A DNA stretch of 35,486 nucleotides from Caldisericum sp. GTDB taxonomy: Bacteria; Caldisericota; Caldisericia; Caldisericales; Caldisericaceae. The notes under the pieces were generated by a model that saw nothing but the letters and a program-made list of their open reading frames with translations, was not told where the DNA came from and did not search any database. Positions 4,486 through 35,362 of this stretch are shown piece after piece; the first letter of the stretch is position 1, and the number at the start of each line of letters is the position of its first letter. The position numbers and the translations under genes are program-made. Location of the stretch: the NCBI GenBank assembly GCA_020692945.1, contig JAIMJY010000006.1, positions 1 through 35,486 on the forward strand, in the 5' to 3' direction.

Positions 4486-4539
4486 AAAATTTTTCAATAT
4501 AACGACAAATAATCGCAAAGGCAGCAATTTATTATTTTC

Positions 4540-4612
4540 TTAATCCTTTATAACTTGCAATCTTTTCAGCAAGCTTATCCCCGATCCTTATCAGGGGATT
4601 CCAAAGGAGTAA
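4540..4612 (+). repeat. Pair of 36-nt palindromic units, head-to-head
   Basis: The first unit (4540-4576) has a TTAATCCTTTAT spacer and arms AACTTGC/GCAAGCT around AATCTTTTCA. The second (4577-4612) is in the opposite orientation, with arms ATCCCC/GGGGAT around GATCCTTATCA and ending CCAAAGGAGTAA. Unlike the other pairs, the two hairpins abut with no spacer between them. A third, degenerate palindrome (ATTGC...GCAA, about 4613-4642, containing AAAGACGGCAA) follows directly. The block fills the gap between folD and the phosphoribosyltransferase. Confidence 0.75.
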
Positions 4613-4863
4613 ATTGCAAAGACGGCAACTGCAAGGGAATAAATGAAAGAAAAGAAAGTAAATTCATTAAAAGGAACATGAATTACAGAAGATTAAAGGT
4701 TCTTATCAAAGAAGAGGATGTGAATAGACGGATTAAAGAACTATGCGAGGAAATAGCCAACGATTACCATGGCAAAAAGCCTATTCTCCTATCAATTCTC
4801 AAGGGAGGAGGTTTCTTTCTTGCAGATCTTGCAAGGTCCATAAAACTTGATTTAACAATAGAT

Positions 4864-4902
4864 TTACTCCTTTGTAAACTGCACTCTTCGTAAGCAGTTC
4901 AT
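4864..4902 (+). repeat. Palindromic unit inside hpt (carries in-frame TAA)
   Basis: TTACTCCTTTGT spacer, arms AAACTGC/GCAGTT, loop ACTCTTCGTAA. It sits in the hpt frame between the codons for LTID and ISASSYGG. The insert is 36 nt once one ambiguous original codon is allowed for. Reading through it gives LLCKLHSS, a stop, then AVH. Confidence 0.85.
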
Positions 4903-5025
4903 ATCTCTGCTTCAAGCTATGGAGGAGAAACTGAATCCTCCGGAAATGTGAGGATATTGAAGGACCTATCACAACCGATTGAAAATAAGGATATTATTCT
5001 TGTTGAAGACATAATAGACACAGGC

Positions 5026-5064
5026 TTACTCCTCTGTAACCTGCGCTCTTTTTCAGCAGGTTCT
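5026..5064 (+). repeat. Palindromic unit inside the hpt PRPP loop
   Basis: TTACTCCTCTGT spacer, arms AACCTGC/GCAGGTT and loop GCTCTTTTTCA. It is inserted in-frame as LLCNLRSFSAGS, in the same frame and orientation as the unit at 4864 but without a stop. It splits the conserved DTG-x-TL motif. Confidence 0.88.
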
Positions 5065-5272
5065 ACCCTAAAATCAATATACGACATGCTCAAAACAAGA
5101 AATCCACACAGCATCAAAGTCTGTGTGTTGTTAGACAAACCTTCTCGAAGAAAGGTCAAAGTGCCTGTCCATTACAAAGACTTTGAGATTCCTGACCTTT
5201 TTGTTGTGGAATTCGGAATTGATTTGAGAGAGAGATACAGAAATCTTCCGTACATAGCATATCTTGAATGAT

Positions 5273-6601
5273 CTAACCCAAAATATTTTTCTTCACAATC
5301 TCTCTTCCTTTTTCTATAAGTTTTGCTGAAGCTCCTTTAATGAATTTCTCTTTTATTACGCCTTCAGAGCCGACGATTCTATCTAGCTCCCTTAAGAAAC
5401 TTCCTTTCCTTTTTCTTGAAAATTTTTTTACTTCCCCATAAGCATCCAATCCTTTTTGCCTTAAGAGAAGCTGGAGAATCTCAGAAAAAATCTCAGAGTG
5501 GTTTAACATGTCTTCTCTGATCTTATCTTCCTGCACTTTCATGCTTTGAAGTCCATTGTGCAACATTTTTAAAGAAAGCAGAAGATACGCAAACGACATT
5601 CCAATATTTCTTTTAACGGTAGAATCGGTTAAGTCCCTTTGCAGCCTGGATTTAAGGAGTTTATTGGAGAGAAAGCCAAACATTGCCTCGGCAAGCTCTG
5701 CGTTACCTTCGCTGTTTTCAAATTTTATTGGGTTTATTTTATGTGGCATTGTAGACGAGCCCACGGACTCTTTAGAAACAGTCAAAGAGATGTACTCGAG
5801 AAGGAAATAATTCCAAATGTTTCTATCCGCATCAATAATAACTGAGGAAATCCTCTTAAGCATATCAAAAAGTTTAGCATAGGAGTCTGCCGGCAAAATT
5901 TGAGTTACGAAAATATTCGGCTTTAAGCCTAAATCCCTAACGAAACGCTCAGAGAAAGAAATCCAATCAACCTTTGGGTAGAGAGCGGTAAGCGCATTAT
6001 AGCCTCCTGTTGCTTCTGCAACCTTACCTTCAATCTCAATGTCCTTCAAATCCTTGTAGAGTATCGATAACCTCACTGCATAGTTTATAAACTGTTTACC
6101 AAGTGTAGTTGGAGTAGCGGGTTCCCCATGAGTAAAAGAAAGCATTGAAAGAGATGCATATTCTTCACTTTTTTGTAGAAGAGACTCAATTGCATCTTTA
6201 AGGCTTTTAAGAATAACGTTTCTCCCTTCGTTAAGCATGAGACCATAGCAAAGGTTATTGACATCTTCGGAAGTTAATCCAAAATGAACGAAAGTTTTAA
6301 GATTAGGCAGGACAACGTCTTTTAAAAACTCTACAACAGCATATACGTCGTGTTCCGTTTTTGCCTCATATTTTTTGATCTTTTTTAGTTCTTTAATAGA
6401 AAAACTTTCCTTTATCCTGTCTAAGCATCCTGCGTCAAAGTTAATGCCAGTTTCTTCTAAGAATGCCTTGAGGTAATCTACCTCAACAAAAACGCGTTTC
6501 CTCACGAGGGCGAATTCCGAAAATATCTGGGAAAGCTCCGAGACAAAATCGAAATATCTACCATCAAGAGGAGAGATTTCAAAAAAGTTATCTGTACTCA
6601 A
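5273..6601 (-). CDS. purB: Adenylosuccinate lyase
   Basis: PurB performs two eliminations of fumarate: SAICAR to AICAR, and adenylosuccinate to AMP. The product (about 442 residues) is of the longer E. coli-like type, with the N-terminal FEISPLDGRY, HFGLTSEDVNN, FTHGEPATPTTLGKQF, and the superfamily signature GSSTMPHKINPIKFEN carrying the mobile-loop serine. I favour the TTG at 6601 as start because AGAGAGGTG lies six nt upstream; an in-frame ATG at 6625 has no ribosome site. It overlaps the 3' end of purA by 14 nt, so the two enzymes of the IMP-to-AMP branch are co-translated. It converges with the hpt remnant with only 1 nt between. Confidence 0.93.
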   Translation of the reverse strand: MSTDNFFEISPLDGRYFDFVSELSQIFSEFALVRKRVFVEVDYLKAFLEETGINFDAGCLDRIKESFSIKELKKIKKYEAKTEHDVYAVVEFLKDVVLPNLKTFVHFGLTSEDVNNLCYGLMLNEGRNVILKSLKDAIESLLQKSEEYASLSMLSFTHGEPATPTTLGKQFINYAVRLSILYKDLKDIEIEGKVAEATGGYNALTALYPKVDWISFSERFVRDLGLKPNIFVTQILPADSYAKLFDMLKRISSVIIDADRNIWNYFLLEYISLTVSKESVGSSTMPHKINPIKFENSEGNAELAEAMFGFLSNKLLKSRLQRDLTDSTVKRNIGMSFAYLLLSLKMLHNGLQSMKVQEDKIREDMLNHSEIFSEILQLLLRQKGLDAYGEVKKFSRKRKGSFLRELDRIVGSEGVIKEKFIKGASAKLIEKGREIVKKNILG

Positions 6602-7868
6602 TTGTATCACCTCTCTCGGGTCCATAAGAAAGAATTGTTACGGGGATCCCTGTAAATTTTTCGATAAAGAAAATATATCTTCTAATACCAGCAGGAAGCG
6701 CATCCTTGGCGCGCCCTTTGAGAGCTTCCCACTCGGCCTTCTCAAGGTTTTCGAGTAGCCCAAAAGTCTCATAAATAGGCTTAACCATCTGAAGGTCGTA
6801 AGCGTTTGGAGGAAAATAATCTAATTGTTTCCCGTTCAATTCATATGAAACTGCCACCACGAGATCAGCAATTGATGGGAGAATATCTATTTTGGTAACC
6901 GCTAATTCCTTTATTCCACTTACTTCCACTGCAAATTTGAGTGCAAAGAGATCAAGATAACCAATCCTCCTTGGCCTACCTGTTGTTGCACCGTATTCGT
7001 TACCTTTTTTTCTCAGTATTTCAGCATCAGTTCCATTTATTTCGGTTGGAAACGGTCCTTCGCCCACTCTCGTAGTGTAAGCTTTGGTTATGCCTATAAC
7101 CTTATCTATCGAAGAAAAAGAAACACCCGTACCTGTAAAGGCACCCTGTGCAATTGTATTTGATGAAGTTACAAACGGGTACGTTCCAAAATCAATATCA
7201 AGAAGGACTCCCTGTGCTCCTTCAAAAAGCACTTTTTTACCGTCCTTAAGAAATTTATTTACAAGAAACGATGTACTTTTAACAAACTGTGCAATTTGTT
7301 TTCCGCAGGCTGAATACGAAGCAACAATTTTTGTTTTATACGATTCGAAATCTTCAGGTGTCGTTATTCCTTCAAAGATTAGATAGTCGCGTTTTGCATC
7401 GATAACCTTAGAAATAAAATCCCTTGCATTTGGATGCGTTATATCGCAAATCCTCAGATTAGTCCTTTCCATTTTGTCTTCATATGCAGGACCAATGCCC
7501 TTTCCAGTCGTACCAATGCCATGCCCCTTTGCCCTGTCAATTTCTTTATGGTAAGGCAGTATAACATTAGCTCTATCACTTATAAAAATAGATGGATTAA
7601 TACCAATTGATACGAGATTTTCAAGTTCGCTGACAAGCTCCACAGGGTCAATTACCATTCCATTCCCAAGAATACAGACATTGCCATTTAGAGCACCTGA
7701 TGGGATTTGGTGAAGGCGCACCTCTTTTCCATTATAGAAAACCGTATGGCCAGCATTTGCTCCACCGTTGAATCTGACCACAACATCCATATCTTTCGAA
7801 AGAAAGTCGACAATCTTTCCTTTCCCTTCATCTCCCCACTGCGCTCCAACAACAATTATTCCTGCCAC
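6588..7868 (-). CDS. purA: Adenylosuccinate synthetase
   Basis: PurA makes adenylosuccinate from IMP, aspartate and GTP. The 426-residue product has the usual length. It begins with the GTP-binding P-loop VVGAQWGDEGKGKIVDFL, then RFNGGANAGHTV, the IMP-site TTGKGIGPAYEDK, LFEGAQGVLLDIDFGTYPFVTSSN, GEGPFPTE and TTGRPRRIGYLDL. The start is a GTG at 7868 behind GAGGAGG; an ATG two bases upstream of it is out of frame. It lies downstream of nadC with a 111-nt gap that holds a palindromic pair. NadB and PurA both use aspartate, but the linkage may simply be operon organisation. Confidence 0.96.
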   Translation of the reverse strand: MAGIIVVGAQWGDEGKGKIVDFLSKDMDVVVRFNGGANAGHTVFYNGKEVRLHQIPSGALNGNVCILGNGMVIDPVELVSELENLVSIGINPSIFISDRANVILPYHKEIDRAKGHGIGTTGKGIGPAYEDKMERTNLRICDITHPNARDFISKVIDAKRDYLIFEGITTPEDFESYKTKIVASYSACGKQIAQFVKSTSFLVNKFLKDGKKVLFEGAQGVLLDIDFGTYPFVTSSNTIAQGAFTGTGVSFSSIDKVIGITKAYTTRVGEGPFPTEINGTDAEILRKKGNEYGATTGRPRRIGYLDLFALKFAVEVSGIKELAVTKIDILPSIADLVVAVSYELNGKQLDYFPPNAYDLQMVKPIYETFGLLENLEKAEWEALKGRAKDALPAGIRRYIFFIEKFTGIPVTILSYGPERGDTIEYR

Positions 7869-8852: not shown

Positions 8853-10512
8853 GATAAATCACCTCCCCACTCTTTACTCCTCTGTAATTCACTGATAAGG
8901 AGCGTGGATTACAAGGGATTAAAACTGCGCTCCTTTTTAGCAGTTTATCTAAAACAACGTGCTTTAACCATTCGTCACTCGTGTTAGGAAAATCAAATCT
9001 ATAGTGCGCGCCTCGGCTCTCTTCTCTTGTCAATGAGGCATAAGTCATTAGGTAGGCTGTTACAAGTATATTTTTTAGCTCCAAAAAATGCTTACTCTGT
9101 GAGAACATGCCTTTTATTTCTTTTTGCCACTTTTCAATAATTACAAGTGCTTTTTCCAAACCATCTCCACTCCTCATAATACCTACATTATTCCACATTA
9201 ACTGCTGGATATCCTTGCGAGAAAAAGATAAGTCAGGTTTCTCGATAAAAGTCAATTCATTTGAACCATCAAAAACAACATTATCCGTTGAAGAATCAGC
9301 AAGAATTGCTTCAATGCAGGACTTCCCAAACACAAGACATTCAAGAAGAGAGTTACTTGCAAGTCTATTAGCACCATGAAGCCCGGTACAGGCAACCTCG
9401 CCGCAGGCGAACAGATTCTCCAAACTCGTTCTTCCTAACTCATCTGTTTCAATGCCACCCATAAAATAGTGCGCCGCGGGCTCTATAGGGATGGGCGCTT
9501 TTGTGATATCGAAACCAAATTCTTTGCAAGTTGCATAAATGGTGGGAAACCTTTCATGTATTCTCATCTCACCTATGGGAGAAAAGTCAAGGAATATATC
9601 TGCGTTAGTTCTTTTAGCCTCGCTCAACACGGCTCTTGTGGCAATATCTCTTGGCGCTAAATCGGCAAGTTCACTGTAGTTTACCATAAACCTTTCACCG
9701 TAATTATTAAGTAAAACTCCGCCTTCGCCTCTTACCGCTTCAGAGATCAGAAATTTTCGCTTAAGAGGAACTTTCAAAGTGGTAGGATGAAATTGGTAAA
9801 ATTCTAAGTCCATAAGTCTTGCCCCTGCTCTAAAAGCAATGGAAAGCCCAGAACCTTCAACTCCATCAGGATTTGTGGTATTTTGATAAAGCTGACCTGC
9901 TCCTCCTGTCGCCAAAATGAAATACTTTGAAAGGAAAATTTCCACTTCGTTAGAACTGTTCAGAAATGCTCCTCCAACAACAGTATTTCCGTTTGTTGTA
10001 AGGTCAATAAGGTCATAATTCTCAAATATTTTTACATTGCTCCTCCGGCTCGCAATTCGAATAAGCGTTGTCTCCAATTCTTTACCTGTAGCGTCTCCAC
10101 CAGCATGTATTATTCTTCGTTTGCTATGAGCACCCTCTTCTGTTAAAGCCAAGTTTCCGTCTGTCTTATCAAATTTAACGCCAAGGGAAATCAAATCCTT
10201 AATTCTTTCTATCCCTTCCTTTACAGTCTTTTCTACTATCGATTTCTCATTGAGACCCGCTCCTGAATAAAGCGTATCCTGAATGTGAAATTCAACCGCA
10301 TCGTCAGGACCTAAGGCAACCGCAATGCCACCCTGAGCATAGTAACTGCTTCCATCGTTAAGTTTCCCTTTACTAAAAATTGCAACTCTGAAGTTTGATG
10401 GAGCATTTAGTGCGGCAGTTAATCCTGCAACACCACTTCCAACAATAATGATGTCGTATTCACCTTTGACGTTCTCTTTGGAGAAATTTACAAGGAACCT
10501 TTCAAAATTCAT
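8812..10512 (-). CDS. nadB: L-aspartate oxidase
   Basis: NadB oxidises L-aspartate to iminoaspartate with FAD; NadA then uses the product. The 566-residue protein shows the FAD Rossmann loop IIIVGSGVAGLTAAL (residues 21-35), GSSYYAQGGIAVAL, the RRIIHAGGDATGKELE region, the substrate site FHPTTL and SEAVRGEGGVLLN, ACGEVACTGLHGANRLASNSLLE, and a helical C-terminal domain ending SRGAHYRFDFP. After DEWLKHVVLD the frame enters two tandem palindromic units (8874-8947), which encode about 25 residues starting KLLKRSAV, then crosses the nadC ribosome site and start. The tail is therefore acquired. The ATG start overlaps nadA as ATGA. Confidence 0.95.
   Translation of the reverse strand: MNFERFLVNFSKENVKGEYDIIIVGSGVAGLTAALNAPSNFRVAIFSKGKLNDGSSYYAQGGIAVALGPDDAVEFHIQDTLYSGAGLNEKSIVEKTVKEGIERIKDLISLGVKFDKTDGNLALTEEGAHSKRRIIHAGGDATGKELETTLIRIASRRSNVKIFENYDLIDLTTNGNTVVGGAFLNSSNEVEIFLSKYFILATGGAGQLYQNTTNPDGVEGSGLSIAFRAGARLMDLEFYQFHPTTLKVPLKRKFLISEAVRGEGGVLLNNYGERFMVNYSELADLAPRDIATRAVLSEAKRTNADIFLDFSPIGEMRIHERFPTIYATCKEFGFDITKAPIPIEPAAHYFMGGIETDELGRTSLENLFACGEVACTGLHGANRLASNSLLECLVFGKSCIEAILADSSTDNVVFDGSNELTFIEKPDLSFSRKDIQQLMWNNVGIMRSGDGLEKALVIIEKWQKEIKGMFSQSKHFLELKNILVTAYLMTYASLTREESRGAHYRFDFPNTSDEWLKHVVLDKLLKRSAVLIPCNPRSLSVNYRGVKSGEVIYRDVNTEASFKRNH
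8874..8947 (+). repeat. Tandem pair of 36-nt palindromic units translated as the NadB tail
   Basis: Unit 1: TTACTCCTCTGT, arms AATTCAC/GTGGATT (8886-8892 and 8904-8910), loop TGATAAGGAGC. Spacer ACAAGGGATTA. Unit 2: arms AAACTGC/GCAGTTT (8922-8928 and 8940-8946), loop GCTCCTTTTTA. The period is 36 nt. It lies inside the nadB reading frame, 6 nt upstream of the nadC Shine-Dalgarno, so the hairpins are in the nadB-nadC translational junction. Confidence 0.87.
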
Positions 10513-11441
10513 ATTTCAAACATCCTTTCAATTGCAAGCCTTGCCTTCTCTCTAACATCTTCTTTTACCTTAACAACGTATTGCATATTCTCAAGTGAAG
10601 ACAAAACTTTTCCTAAGGTTATCTTCTTCATATTTGGGCAGAAAATTGGTTTGGAAAATGTATAAAATTCTTTAGTAGGATTCTCTTTCTTAAGCCGATA
10701 AATCAAGCCTTCCTCGGTTCCTATTATAAACTGCTTACGAGGAGTGCAGTTTACAGAGGAGTAGAACTCTTTGTTGTTGTCGTTTTTAACATAGTTGAGA
10801 ATGCCCGTCGTACTTTTCACTGCATCTGCAAGTGCTAAAACTTCTCTTTTGCATTCAGGATGAGCAACGAACTTTGCGTCAGGATGAATCCGCTTAATTT
10901 CAAGGACGTCGCTTCTATCAATCACGTTGTGGGTGGGGCAAAAGCCGTCCGAAAGGTAAACTTTTTTTTGCGTATACTCTTGCACGTATGAGCCCAGATT
11001 TCTGTCTGGAATAAAAATCACTTCTTCCGAAGGAACCTTTTCAACGATGCTTACGGCATTGGAAGATGTGCAACAGTAATCACTCATGGCTTTAACTTCA
11101 GCACTCGTATTTACGTAAGCAACAACAAGCGCTTTAGGGTGCTCTACTTTCAATTTTTTAATCTCGCTTACCGTAATTGAGTCGGCAAGAGGGCAGCCAG
11201 CATTCATATCAGGTATCAATACAATCTTGTCCGGGGCTAAAATTGAGATAGTTTCAGCCATAAAGTAAACACCGCAAAGCACTACAACACGCTCTTTCAA
11301 TGTCTTTGCAATTTTTGCTAATTCAAGTGAATCACCAACAAAATCCGCAACATCCTGGACTTTAGCTATCTGATAATTATGAGCAAGAATCACTGCATCT
11401 CTCTCTTTCCTGAGATTGTTAATTTTAGTTACTATATCCAT
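10509..11441 (-). CDS. nadA: Quinolinate synthase, with a 12-residue repeat-encoded insert
   Basis: NadA condenses iminoaspartate with dihydroxyacetone phosphate to quinolinate, using a [4Fe-4S] cluster. The 310-residue product has ILAHNYQ, VLCGVYFMAET (first cluster Cys), MNAGCPLADS, YVNTSAEVKAMSDYCCTSSNA, the central FIPDRNLGSYV, AHPECKREVL and FCPNMKKITLGKV (late Cys). The strand normally reading KEFIIGTEEG is interrupted after NNKE by FYSSVNCTPRKQ, encoded by one 36-nt palindromic unit (10731-10766). The frame stays open and all other motifs are intact, so the enzyme is probably functional with an added loop, which itself carries a Cys. It is the first gene of nadA-nadB-nadC-purA-purB, with a good promoter upstream. 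Confidence 0.95.
   Translation of the reverse strand: MDIVTKINNLRKERDAVILAHNYQIAKVQDVADFVGDSLELAKIAKTLKERVVVLCGVYFMAETISILAPDKIVLIPDMNAGCPLADSITVSEIKKLKVEHPKALVVAYVNTSAEVKAMSDYCCTSSNAVSIVEKVPSEEVIFIPDRNLGSYVQEYTQKKVYLSDGFCPTHNVIDRSDVLEIKRIHPDAKFVAHPECKREVLALADAVKSTTGILNYVKNDNNKEFYSSVNCTPRKQFIIGTEEGLIYRLKKENPTKEFYTFSKPIFCPNMKKITLGKVLSSLENMQYVVKVKEDVREKARLAIERMFEI
10731..10766 (-). repeat. Palindromic unit inserted in-frame in nadA
   Basis: On the nadA coding strand: TTCTACTCCTCTGT spacer, arms AAACTGC/GCAGTTT, loop ACTCCTCGTAA. The 36 nt encode FYSSVNCTPRKQ. The frame used differs from the one used in hpt, so the element is open in more than one frame. Confidence 0.9.
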
Positions 11442-22219: not shown

Positions 22220-22231
22220 ATAGAAACTCCT

Positions 22232-22298
22232 TTATTCCTCTGTAACCTGCACTCTTTTTCAGCAGGTTTATTCCTCTGGAATCCGCACTCATTTTCTC
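22232..22298 (+). repeat. Tandem palindromic units, second one broken
   Basis: Unit 1: TTATTCCTCTGT, perfect arms AACCTGC/GCAGGTT (22244-22250 and 22262-22268), loop ACTCTTTTTCA. Unit 2 starts after TATTCCTCTGG with AATCCGC (22280-22286) and ACTCATTTTCT, but has no closing arm. The period is exactly 36 nt. Confidence 0.87.
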
Positions 22299-26500: not shown

Positions 26501-26535
26501 GAAATGTACATACAAACATTCTACGAAGTCTTCCT

Positions 26536-26610
26536 GTACTCCTCTGGAATCCGCCCTCTTCTTCCGCGGATTTACTCCTCTGAAAACTGCACTCTTCTTC
26601 AGCGGATTGT
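26536..26610 (+). repeat. Tandem palindromic units downstream of rplY
   Basis: Unit 1: GTACTCCTCTGG, perfect arms AATCCGC/GCGGATT (26548-26554 and 26566-26572), loop CCTCTTCTTCC. Unit 2: TACTCCTCTGA, AAACTGC (26584-26590), loop ACTCTTCTTCA, right arm GCGGATT (mismatched, as if taken from the other subtype). The period is 36 nt. A further half-unit ending GCAGGTTTA (26632-26640) lies in the end of rplY. Confidence 0.85.
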
Positions 26611-26613
26611 AAG

Positions 26614-27339
26614 CTATTTCTTCTCTTCTTTAGCAGGTTTAGCTTCTGGTGTTTTGGCAGCCTTTCCAGTTTCTGGAGTTTTGGCAGCCTTTCCAGTTTC
26701 AGGTTCTTTGCCTTCCTTAGTAGATTCTGGAGACGCAGCAGTAGCAGCGGCAACTTCCTCTACGGCAGGAGCAGGAGCAACTTCTTCAACAGTAGGTGTA
26801 ACTACGGAGAAGACAACTGTGTCTGGCGGAGTGAGAAGCTTCACCTTATCACTTAATGAAAGGTTATGAACGTAAATTACATCCTTGATTTCAAGGTTAG
26901 TCACGTCAACTTCAACTTTCTCTGGAAGGTCTGTAAGGAGTCCTTCAACTTGAAGCTCACGCAGTGTCTGGTCAAGTATTCCGCCTAACTTTACGCCTTT
27001 TGCTTCTCCGACAGCAACGACAGGAACCTTTGTATAAACAGGCTTACTGAGATTTACTGTTTCAAAATCAACATGGAGAATCTTTCTTCCAATATGTTCT
27101 TTTTGAATTTCTTTAAATATTGAAGGATGAACCGTACCGTCGATATCAAGATCGACGAGAACGTTTTTTCCATATTTTTCTGTAATAAGAACAAGGTCTC
27201 GCTCTTTCACTTTAACGGTAACGCTCACGGCACCTTCTCCGTAAACCACAGCTGGAACGAACCCTTCACTTCTAACTTTATTTAAACTTCCTTTTGTGTT
27301 TACTTCTCTCTTTACTGCACTTAATTGAACTCTTTTCAC
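26614..27339 (-). CDS. rplY: Ribosomal protein bL25, CTC type with low-complexity tail
   Basis: bL25/CTC binds 5S rRNA on the large ribosomal subunit. The 241-residue product has the N-terminal L25 domain (VKREVNTKGSLNKVRSEGFVPAVVYGE), the IGRKILHVDFETVNLSKPV strand region, and the TL5/CTC C-terminal beta domain (VKLGGILDQTLRELQVEGLLTDLPEKVEVDVTNL type). It ends in an Ala/Glu/Lys/Pro tail with two copies of PETGKAAKT. The GTG at 27339 is chosen over the ATG at 27357, because the ATG lies inside the GGAGGAGG site that serves the GTG. The final residues KPAKEEKK are read through sequence resembling a palindromic half-unit. Confidence 0.92.
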   Translation of the reverse strand: MKRVQLSAVKREVNTKGSLNKVRSEGFVPAVVYGEGAVSVTVKVKERDLVLITEKYGKNVLVDLDIDGTVHPSIFKEIQKEHIGRKILHVDFETVNLSKPVYTKVPVVAVGEAKGVKLGGILDQTLRELQVEGLLTDLPEKVEVDVTNLEIKDVIYVHNLSLSDKVKLLTPPDTVVFSVVTPTVEEVAPAPAVEEVAAATAASPESTKEGKEPETGKAAKTPETGKAAKTPEAKPAKEEKK

Positions 27340-27374
27340 GAGTATATCCTCCTCCAAATAAATTTCAACATTAA

Positions 27375-33844: not shown

Positions 33845-34573
33845 AAATTTACAAGACAGCTAACCCTGGATTTTTCTTATTGATTTTTAGTAAATTGTGA
33901 TTCAAGTTTGTTTGGATAGTGTCCAATCGTGCAATGTTTGATTAAGACTTAACCTGAGCTTTTCTCCAAATGTTCCTATAATCTTTTGGAATTGGTAAAG
34001 ACGGCAATAGATGAGAGTAAACGCTGTGTTTGCGATTCGCAAGGAAAAGAGTGCGCAAAGACTTTTTTCTTGTCACCCTGAGCGCTTTTTGCGCAATCCT
34101 TTCTCGACGAAGTCGAGTGGGTTTCTCTTTCTTACTCTGTCACTGCGAGAAGTAAGTGAAATAAACGACGTGGCAGTCTCGCACCCCTTCTGTCATCGCA
34201 AGGGTACACTCTTCTTGTGCCCGTGGCGATCTCGCTTTTAGGTATTCCTCAAAAGCCAACGGCGAGATTGCTTCGCTTCGACTTGACTTCGTCAAGGAAC
34301 AGAGCGCAAAGACAGGAAAAAGGCAAAAAGGCTTTCTAAACCGTTGCAGAATGGAAGTGAAATAGAAAGAGATGATTGATTTTCATTTTGTTGTATCCGC
34401 TAAATTAAGGGATAGTGTATAATAAGTAGAGGGAGAAAGGATAAATATTTTAAGAAAGCGATTACCAGACAAAATGCTTGGTATATAAACAATTGTTTTA
34501 TAAACGAGTTGGCGAAAACTGACAGCAAGATATTTATATTAATAAAACAATAATATAAAAAAGGAGGAAAATA
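33845..34573. other. Intergenic region rich in dispersed repeats
   Basis: 729 nt with no supportable gene; the open frame at 34011-34241 lies across repeats and looks spurious. A degenerate palindromic unit (about 33972-34013, ATTGGTAAAGACGGCAAT core) resembles the third hairpin near 4613-4642. A second-family repeat begins at 34071. At 34150-34340 there are hairpin-forming segments such as CTTGACTTCGTCAAG. TATAAT at 34418-34423 may be a -10 for the reductase gene, with no clear -35. Confidence 0.5.
34071..34149 (+). repeat. Second-family dispersed repeat, copy 1
   Basis: Starts TGTCACCCTGAGCGCTTTTT, contains the hairpin CTCGAC-GAA-GTCGAG, then GTGGG and TCTTTCTTACTC, and ends TGTCACTGCGAG. 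Nearly the same sequence recurs at 35283-35362 in the same orientation. It is visibly richer in GC than its surroundings. Confidence 0.85.
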
Positions 34574-35282: not shown

Positions 35283-35362
35283 TGTCACCCTGAGCGCTTT
35301 TTGCACACTCTTTTCGTTGACGTAGTCGAGTGGGTCCCTCTTTCTTACTCTGTCACTGCGAG
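35283..35362 (+). repeat. Second-family dispersed repeat, copy 2
   Basis: TGTCACCCTGAGCGCTTTTT, then a diverged hairpin (GTTGAC-GTA-GTCGAG), GTGGG, TCTTTCTTACTC and TGTCACTGCGAG. It is a direct repeat of 34071-34149 about 1.2 kb away. Confidence 0.85.

Follow-up and report, generated by a model that had tools for sequence, protein, structure and literature searches.

The window analysed here, a stretch of 35,486 nt from Caldisericum sp., contains an hpt gene (hpt2) interrupted by two repeat units inserted in frame. Such a gene could be a pseudogene, or its inserts could be repaired at the level of the RNA or the ribosome. The pseudogene reading is far ahead of all others. We put the probability that hpt2 was recently inactivated by two insertions of an interspersed palindromic repeat at about 0.93. 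Recent inactivation by the two units was the default of the first-pass annotation, and it is supported by an intact main hpt, a long branch and the loss of an invariant glycine.

The two units, S1 and S2, are in the same orientation and frame, one with a TAA and the other parting DTG from TL in the PRPP loop, as described at first pass (Table 1). The conserved element spans 37 nt in both, with a net gain of 36 nt each over the empty site. S1 (TTACTCCTTTGTAAACTGCACTCTTCGTAAGCAGTTC) reads LLLCKLHSS*AV, while S2 (TTACTCCTCTGTAACCTGCGCTCTTTTTCAGCAGGTT) reads LLLCNLRSFSAG and is stop-free. S2 separates EDIIDTG from (S)TL, and the best solved HPRT aligns to hpt2 with a clean gap of exactly 12 residues at this site. 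The PRPP-binding loop has a known functional role in HPRT, and an insert of 12 codons there would abolish PRPP binding. We infer that no active enzyme is made from hpt2. The empty site of S1 is well defined, with DYIAASSYG in the orthologues and DYISASSYG in the window gene after removal of 36 nt. Taking out 36 nt at each insert gives an HPRT of 173 residues, the length expected at first pass, which scores 201 bits against NCBIfam TIGR01203 (cut-off 150). The removal restores ...LTIDYISASSYG..., where the Tyr is common to all three orthologues. S1 and S2 match the genome-wide repeat core with 0 mismatches, and a 38-nt consensus matches S2 and one intergenic copy in the window, two matches in all, versus none in 100 shuffles. 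The nearest other copies to S1, with 4 mismatches in 37, are at L098:15470 and inside nadA. Judged from sequence, the TAA of S1 may have come along with the insertion event: the loop variant of S1, CGTAAGCAG, also occurs in nadA in another frame, there read CGT AAG. Apart from this unusual loop, S1 and the nadA copy, which lie 5.8 kb apart and inverted, have similar flanks in common. Local copying could be behind their likeness.

Table 1. Features of the window in and around hpt2 and other copies of the repeat family.
Feature	Positions	Strand	Remarks
Degenerate repeat-family copies between folD and hpt2	4539..4613	.	D2 copy 4539-4568; inverted arm I5 4577-4612
hpt2, second HPRT gene with two palindromic inserts, probably inactivated	4678..5271	+	plain translation with TAA and 12-aa insert
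Insert 1 (S1), single 37-nt palindromic repeat copy	4864..4900	+	net gain 36 nt
TAA in frame within S1	4891..4893	+	
Insert 2 (S2), single 37-nt repeat copy	5026..5062	+	net gain 36 nt
purB (adenylosuccinate lyase), convergent neighbour of hpt2	5273..6625	-	also in G008 and G012
Repeat copy inside nadA (ORF 10509-11441)	10728..10764	-	gene's own strand; stop-free frame FYSSVNCTPRKQF
Fully palindromic element, two ~20-nt arms and short loop	20768..20826	+	intergenic
Tandem repeat pair, 36-nt period	22231..22296	+	intergenic
Tandem repeat pair, 36-nt period	26535..26608	+	just beyond ORF ending at 26614

To judge from the sequences compared, hpt2 is a redundant second HPRT paralogue. The first-pass annotation had proposed a search for another hpt gene, and the genome of the window does encode an intact main hpt (G000:C162:42567-43127; TIGR01203, 223 bits) in the setting tilS-hpt-ftsH, with neighbours named by eye from translations. 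Such an intact gene was one half of what had been named as evidence against a repair of the inserts, and this half is present. Intact and insert-free hpt2 genes of full length are found in three relatives (G008, G010 and G012) at 65-69% identity, and in G008 and G012 the gene adjoins purB in the same convergent order. Identity to the same three relatives is 71-73% for the main hpt, a modest difference. The near-complete relatives G002, G003, G006, G007 and G011 show a single HPRT each, and an hpt2-like match was not found in several near-complete relatives. Because several near-complete relatives show one HPRT only, hpt2 looks dispensable in the family.

Decay of hpt2 was judged from tip branch length and invariant residues; dN/dS was dropped as a test of decay because synonymous sites are near saturation. 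The tip branch of hpt2 in the tree is 0.46, compared with 0.09, 0.07 and 0.03 in the three orthologues, which is about five times the closest sister (0.09). Residue 154 is Glu in hpt2 (G154E) and Gly in 77 of 77 background HPRTs, and the earlier statement that there is no other lesion was not quite right. Some observations speak against a pseudogene. Once both units are left out, the remaining frame is open and near normal, and pairwise dN/dS to the nearest orthologue is low (dN 0.23, dS about 2.2, near saturation), which means that the loss must be recent or that some selection may remain. The long branch may partly be due to a fast lineage, as the main hpt of the same genome is also long-tipped (0.23). 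The pairwise dN of 0.23 with saturated dS indicates that hpt2 evolved under constraint until late in its history and that the loss is recent.

The repeat core has 211 matches in the 1.5-Mb genome (115 plus, 96 minus; at most 3 mismatches), and a reversed control pattern has one. A profile search of 819 kb of this genome, in contigs picked mostly for repeat matches, detected 264 copies, which fall into 181 clusters and are often arranged in tandem with a period of 36; these counts are lower bounds. A hairpin stem of five base pairs covaries across 141 distinct copies when set against the column expectation and slid controls. The position pair 16-36 is Watson-Crick in 117 of the 141 copies, with 64.8 expected from the columns; pairs 18-34 and 19-33 covary likewise and pair 20-32 more weakly. 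The element also exists as a full palindrome of about 50 nt. Four of the six frames are stop-free in the consensus. Of 17 relatives from the same family, just one, G007, has the repeat in high number (50 matches). It is sparse or absent in the others (10 matches in G002, 0 in G008 and G010), being nearly absent from G008, G010 and G012. A RAYT transposase as the mover of the repeat was rejected, since no Y1_Tnp/RAYT (PF01797) protein was found in the genome of the window; 5 of 14 control genomes gave a match. The assembly is fragmented into 207 contigs, with many breaks in copies of this repeat. Several contigs end inside the repeat (e.g., C80:10, C154:12, C25:7 and C89:15 of G000), so the repeat probably limits assembly and the true copy number is probably higher. 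The window contains other repeats as well. A second type, unrelated to the 36-nt unit, has two copies at 34071-34149 and 35283-35362 (TGTCACCCTGAGCGC... and GACGAAGTCGAGTGGG...), and similar-looking repeat translations occur near hpt2 in relatives (L069-L071). Within the ORF at 26614-27357, the part that encodes the C-terminus contains a 27-nt tandem repeat (26641-26694).

Repeat units also occur inside other genes, which were recognized with the proteins of the relative G006 (about 1.16 Mb read) as a guide. Within the 819 kb sampled, 26 repeat clusters fall into gene-like matches, from which the share of copies within genes can be given approximately. At least 22 otherwise intact genes carry in-frame units, and none has a stop inside a unit. 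Circularity was checked by counting a gene as intact according to stops outside the insert. On average, 62% of the six frames per copy are stop-free by chance, and the chance of 21 independent genes all being stop-free is about 4e-5. A stop within a unit was seen in a single gene-like match, L152:13433, which contains seven stops and is probably not a gene. L145 was counted, as its stop lies outside the insert and a frame of 757 aa runs through the unit. Genes with in-frame units encode MnmE (three units), ArgS, GcvPA, GcvPB, RecF, NrdD, YchF, an ABC-F protein, a calcium ATPase and Cmk. Gene-borne units occur in either orientation and in several reading frames, and insert sites often coincide with alignment gaps. 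For argS and cmk, one full match each was found in the genome, and no second full copy. NadA of the window has about 12-14 extra residues relative to solved NadA and a NadA family match of 387 bits. The insert peptide of ArgS is predicted to be LLSWNPRSFSAD. Since MnmE and ArgS of relatives lack the inserts, as judged from match lengths, these inserts arose in the lineage of the window. Larger insertions are found too. At L155:11156-11299, several repeat units extend a gene of ~275 residues in frame by about 56 codons without a stop. Three tandem in-frame units, with ~36 extra residues each time, are present at L152:15486-15594 (the P-type calcium ATPase) and L100:3344-3451 (MnmE). The units in other genes are likely translated. 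With at least 22 otherwise intact genes carrying it in frame and free of stops, the genome seems to tolerate the repeat by translating it.

The open frames elsewhere bear on the repair mechanisms raised at first pass. Bypassing of the inserts by ribosomes, as in T4 gene 60 or the mitochondrial byp elements of Magnusiomyces, would make a normal enzyme from hpt2. Both inserts are in frame and can form hairpins (z-score of -3.0 for S2) between otherwise open coding flanks, much like the hairpin-bearing inserts within the coding sequences of those systems. The GGC before S2 and the GGT 36 nt later, proposed as take-off and landing codons, are indeed present. However, the GGT consists of the last stem bases of the repeat and the following T (GCAGGTT), and any copy of the CCTGC/GCAGG type read in this frame supplies it, which leaves only the upstream Gly as a coincidence. 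S1 has no such pair, as the first-pass annotation had already recognized. Bypassed inserts either break the frame or, like that of gene 60, open with a stop that adjoins the take-off codon (PMC5009743). The Caldisericum units instead keep the frame and have neither feature at the take-off site: S2 is stop-free after the putative take-off codon and the stop of S1 is the tenth codon. If inserts were skipped or removed, the reading frame of the units would not matter, and keeping the frame and avoiding stops in otherwise intact genes would be needless. The second hpt also removes the need for bypassing, which thus finds no support and appears exceedingly improbable.

Excision from the transcript would equally restore a normal HPRT frame. 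Yet stops are avoided in the other repeat-bearing genes (at least 22), and an Rfam search of the window matched no family, on which ground self-splicing or another known RNA in the window was rejected. At 36 nt, the units are far shorter than any self-splicing intron known to us. Excision is unsupported and hardly to be expected. Just as implausible is a broader version, in which either ribosomal skipping or removal of the units at the RNA level lets hpt2 supply some normal HPRT, and the open frames elsewhere act only as a fallback. A truncated or altered product serving some different function, made for instance of the N-terminal 71 residues, could account for a frame that is open up to the stop in a gene constrained for most of its history. 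Such a protein would miss the PRPP loop, however, and no sister genome encodes a truncated form; the lost invariant glycine and the long branch argue in the same direction. We regard this as very unlikely.

By its behaviour, the 36-nt repeat represents a family of protein-coding palindromes in a Caldisericota lineage that resembles the Rickettsia palindromic elements (RPEs) and the Wolbachia palindromic elements (WPEs). It shows dyad symmetry with hairpin potential and many copies in both orientations with a lineage-specific spread. Likewise, stop-free insertions are found in frame in several unrelated genes and are absent from mnmE and argS of relatives. RPEs are short palindromic many-copy repeats that have entered unrelated genes without shifting the frame and persist there as open frames (PMC10969869). 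The likeness to RPEs is one of behaviour, as these measure about 150 bp (PMC10969869), whereas the Caldisericum unit adds 36 nt net (12 codons), forms tandem arrays with a period of 36 and resides in a Caldisericota host. WPEs are in-frame coding palindromes too, and one of them contains the premature stop seen in addA of isopod Wolbachia strains (PMC4224334), which closely parallels the case of S1 in hpt2. They belong to another lineage, though, and their inserts are much longer. Outside Rickettsiales, palindromic repeats with coding potential are described for Methanocaldococcus jannaschii (Suyama et al. 2005, as cited in PMC2996958); the likeness is by description of the cited work and the host is an archaeon. 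REPs, the elements that go with RAYT transposases, are also small high-copy palindromes, of 20-40 bp and mostly intergenic (PMC3733652). In contrast, a sizeable share of the Caldisericum copies lies inside genes, in a genome without a Y1_Tnp/RAYT match. Our search of the open-licence literature found no description of such repeats in Caldisericum.

We suggest that a short palindromic repeat, interspersed and compatible with open reading frames, inserts in the genome at 36 nt (12 codons) per unit and that units can grow in tandem. With most of the six frames stop-free, units in tolerant places of genes would add short translated peptides to the protein and persist under selection. In hpt2, the catalytic PRPP loop would have received one unit, and the second would have brought a loop variant reading TAA in that frame. 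Nothing essential would have been lost, given the intact standard hpt between tilS and ftsH. It is in the obligately intracellular Rickettsiales that coding palindromes are best known, with one archaeal case cited as well. A Caldisericota family with hundreds of copies, which lengthens core genes by twelve codons or a multiple of twelve, shows the phenomenon to be wider. The repeat family amounts to a compact natural experiment on the tolerance of proteins to peptide inserts, and hpt2 is likely a case in which this element has instead killed a redundant gene.
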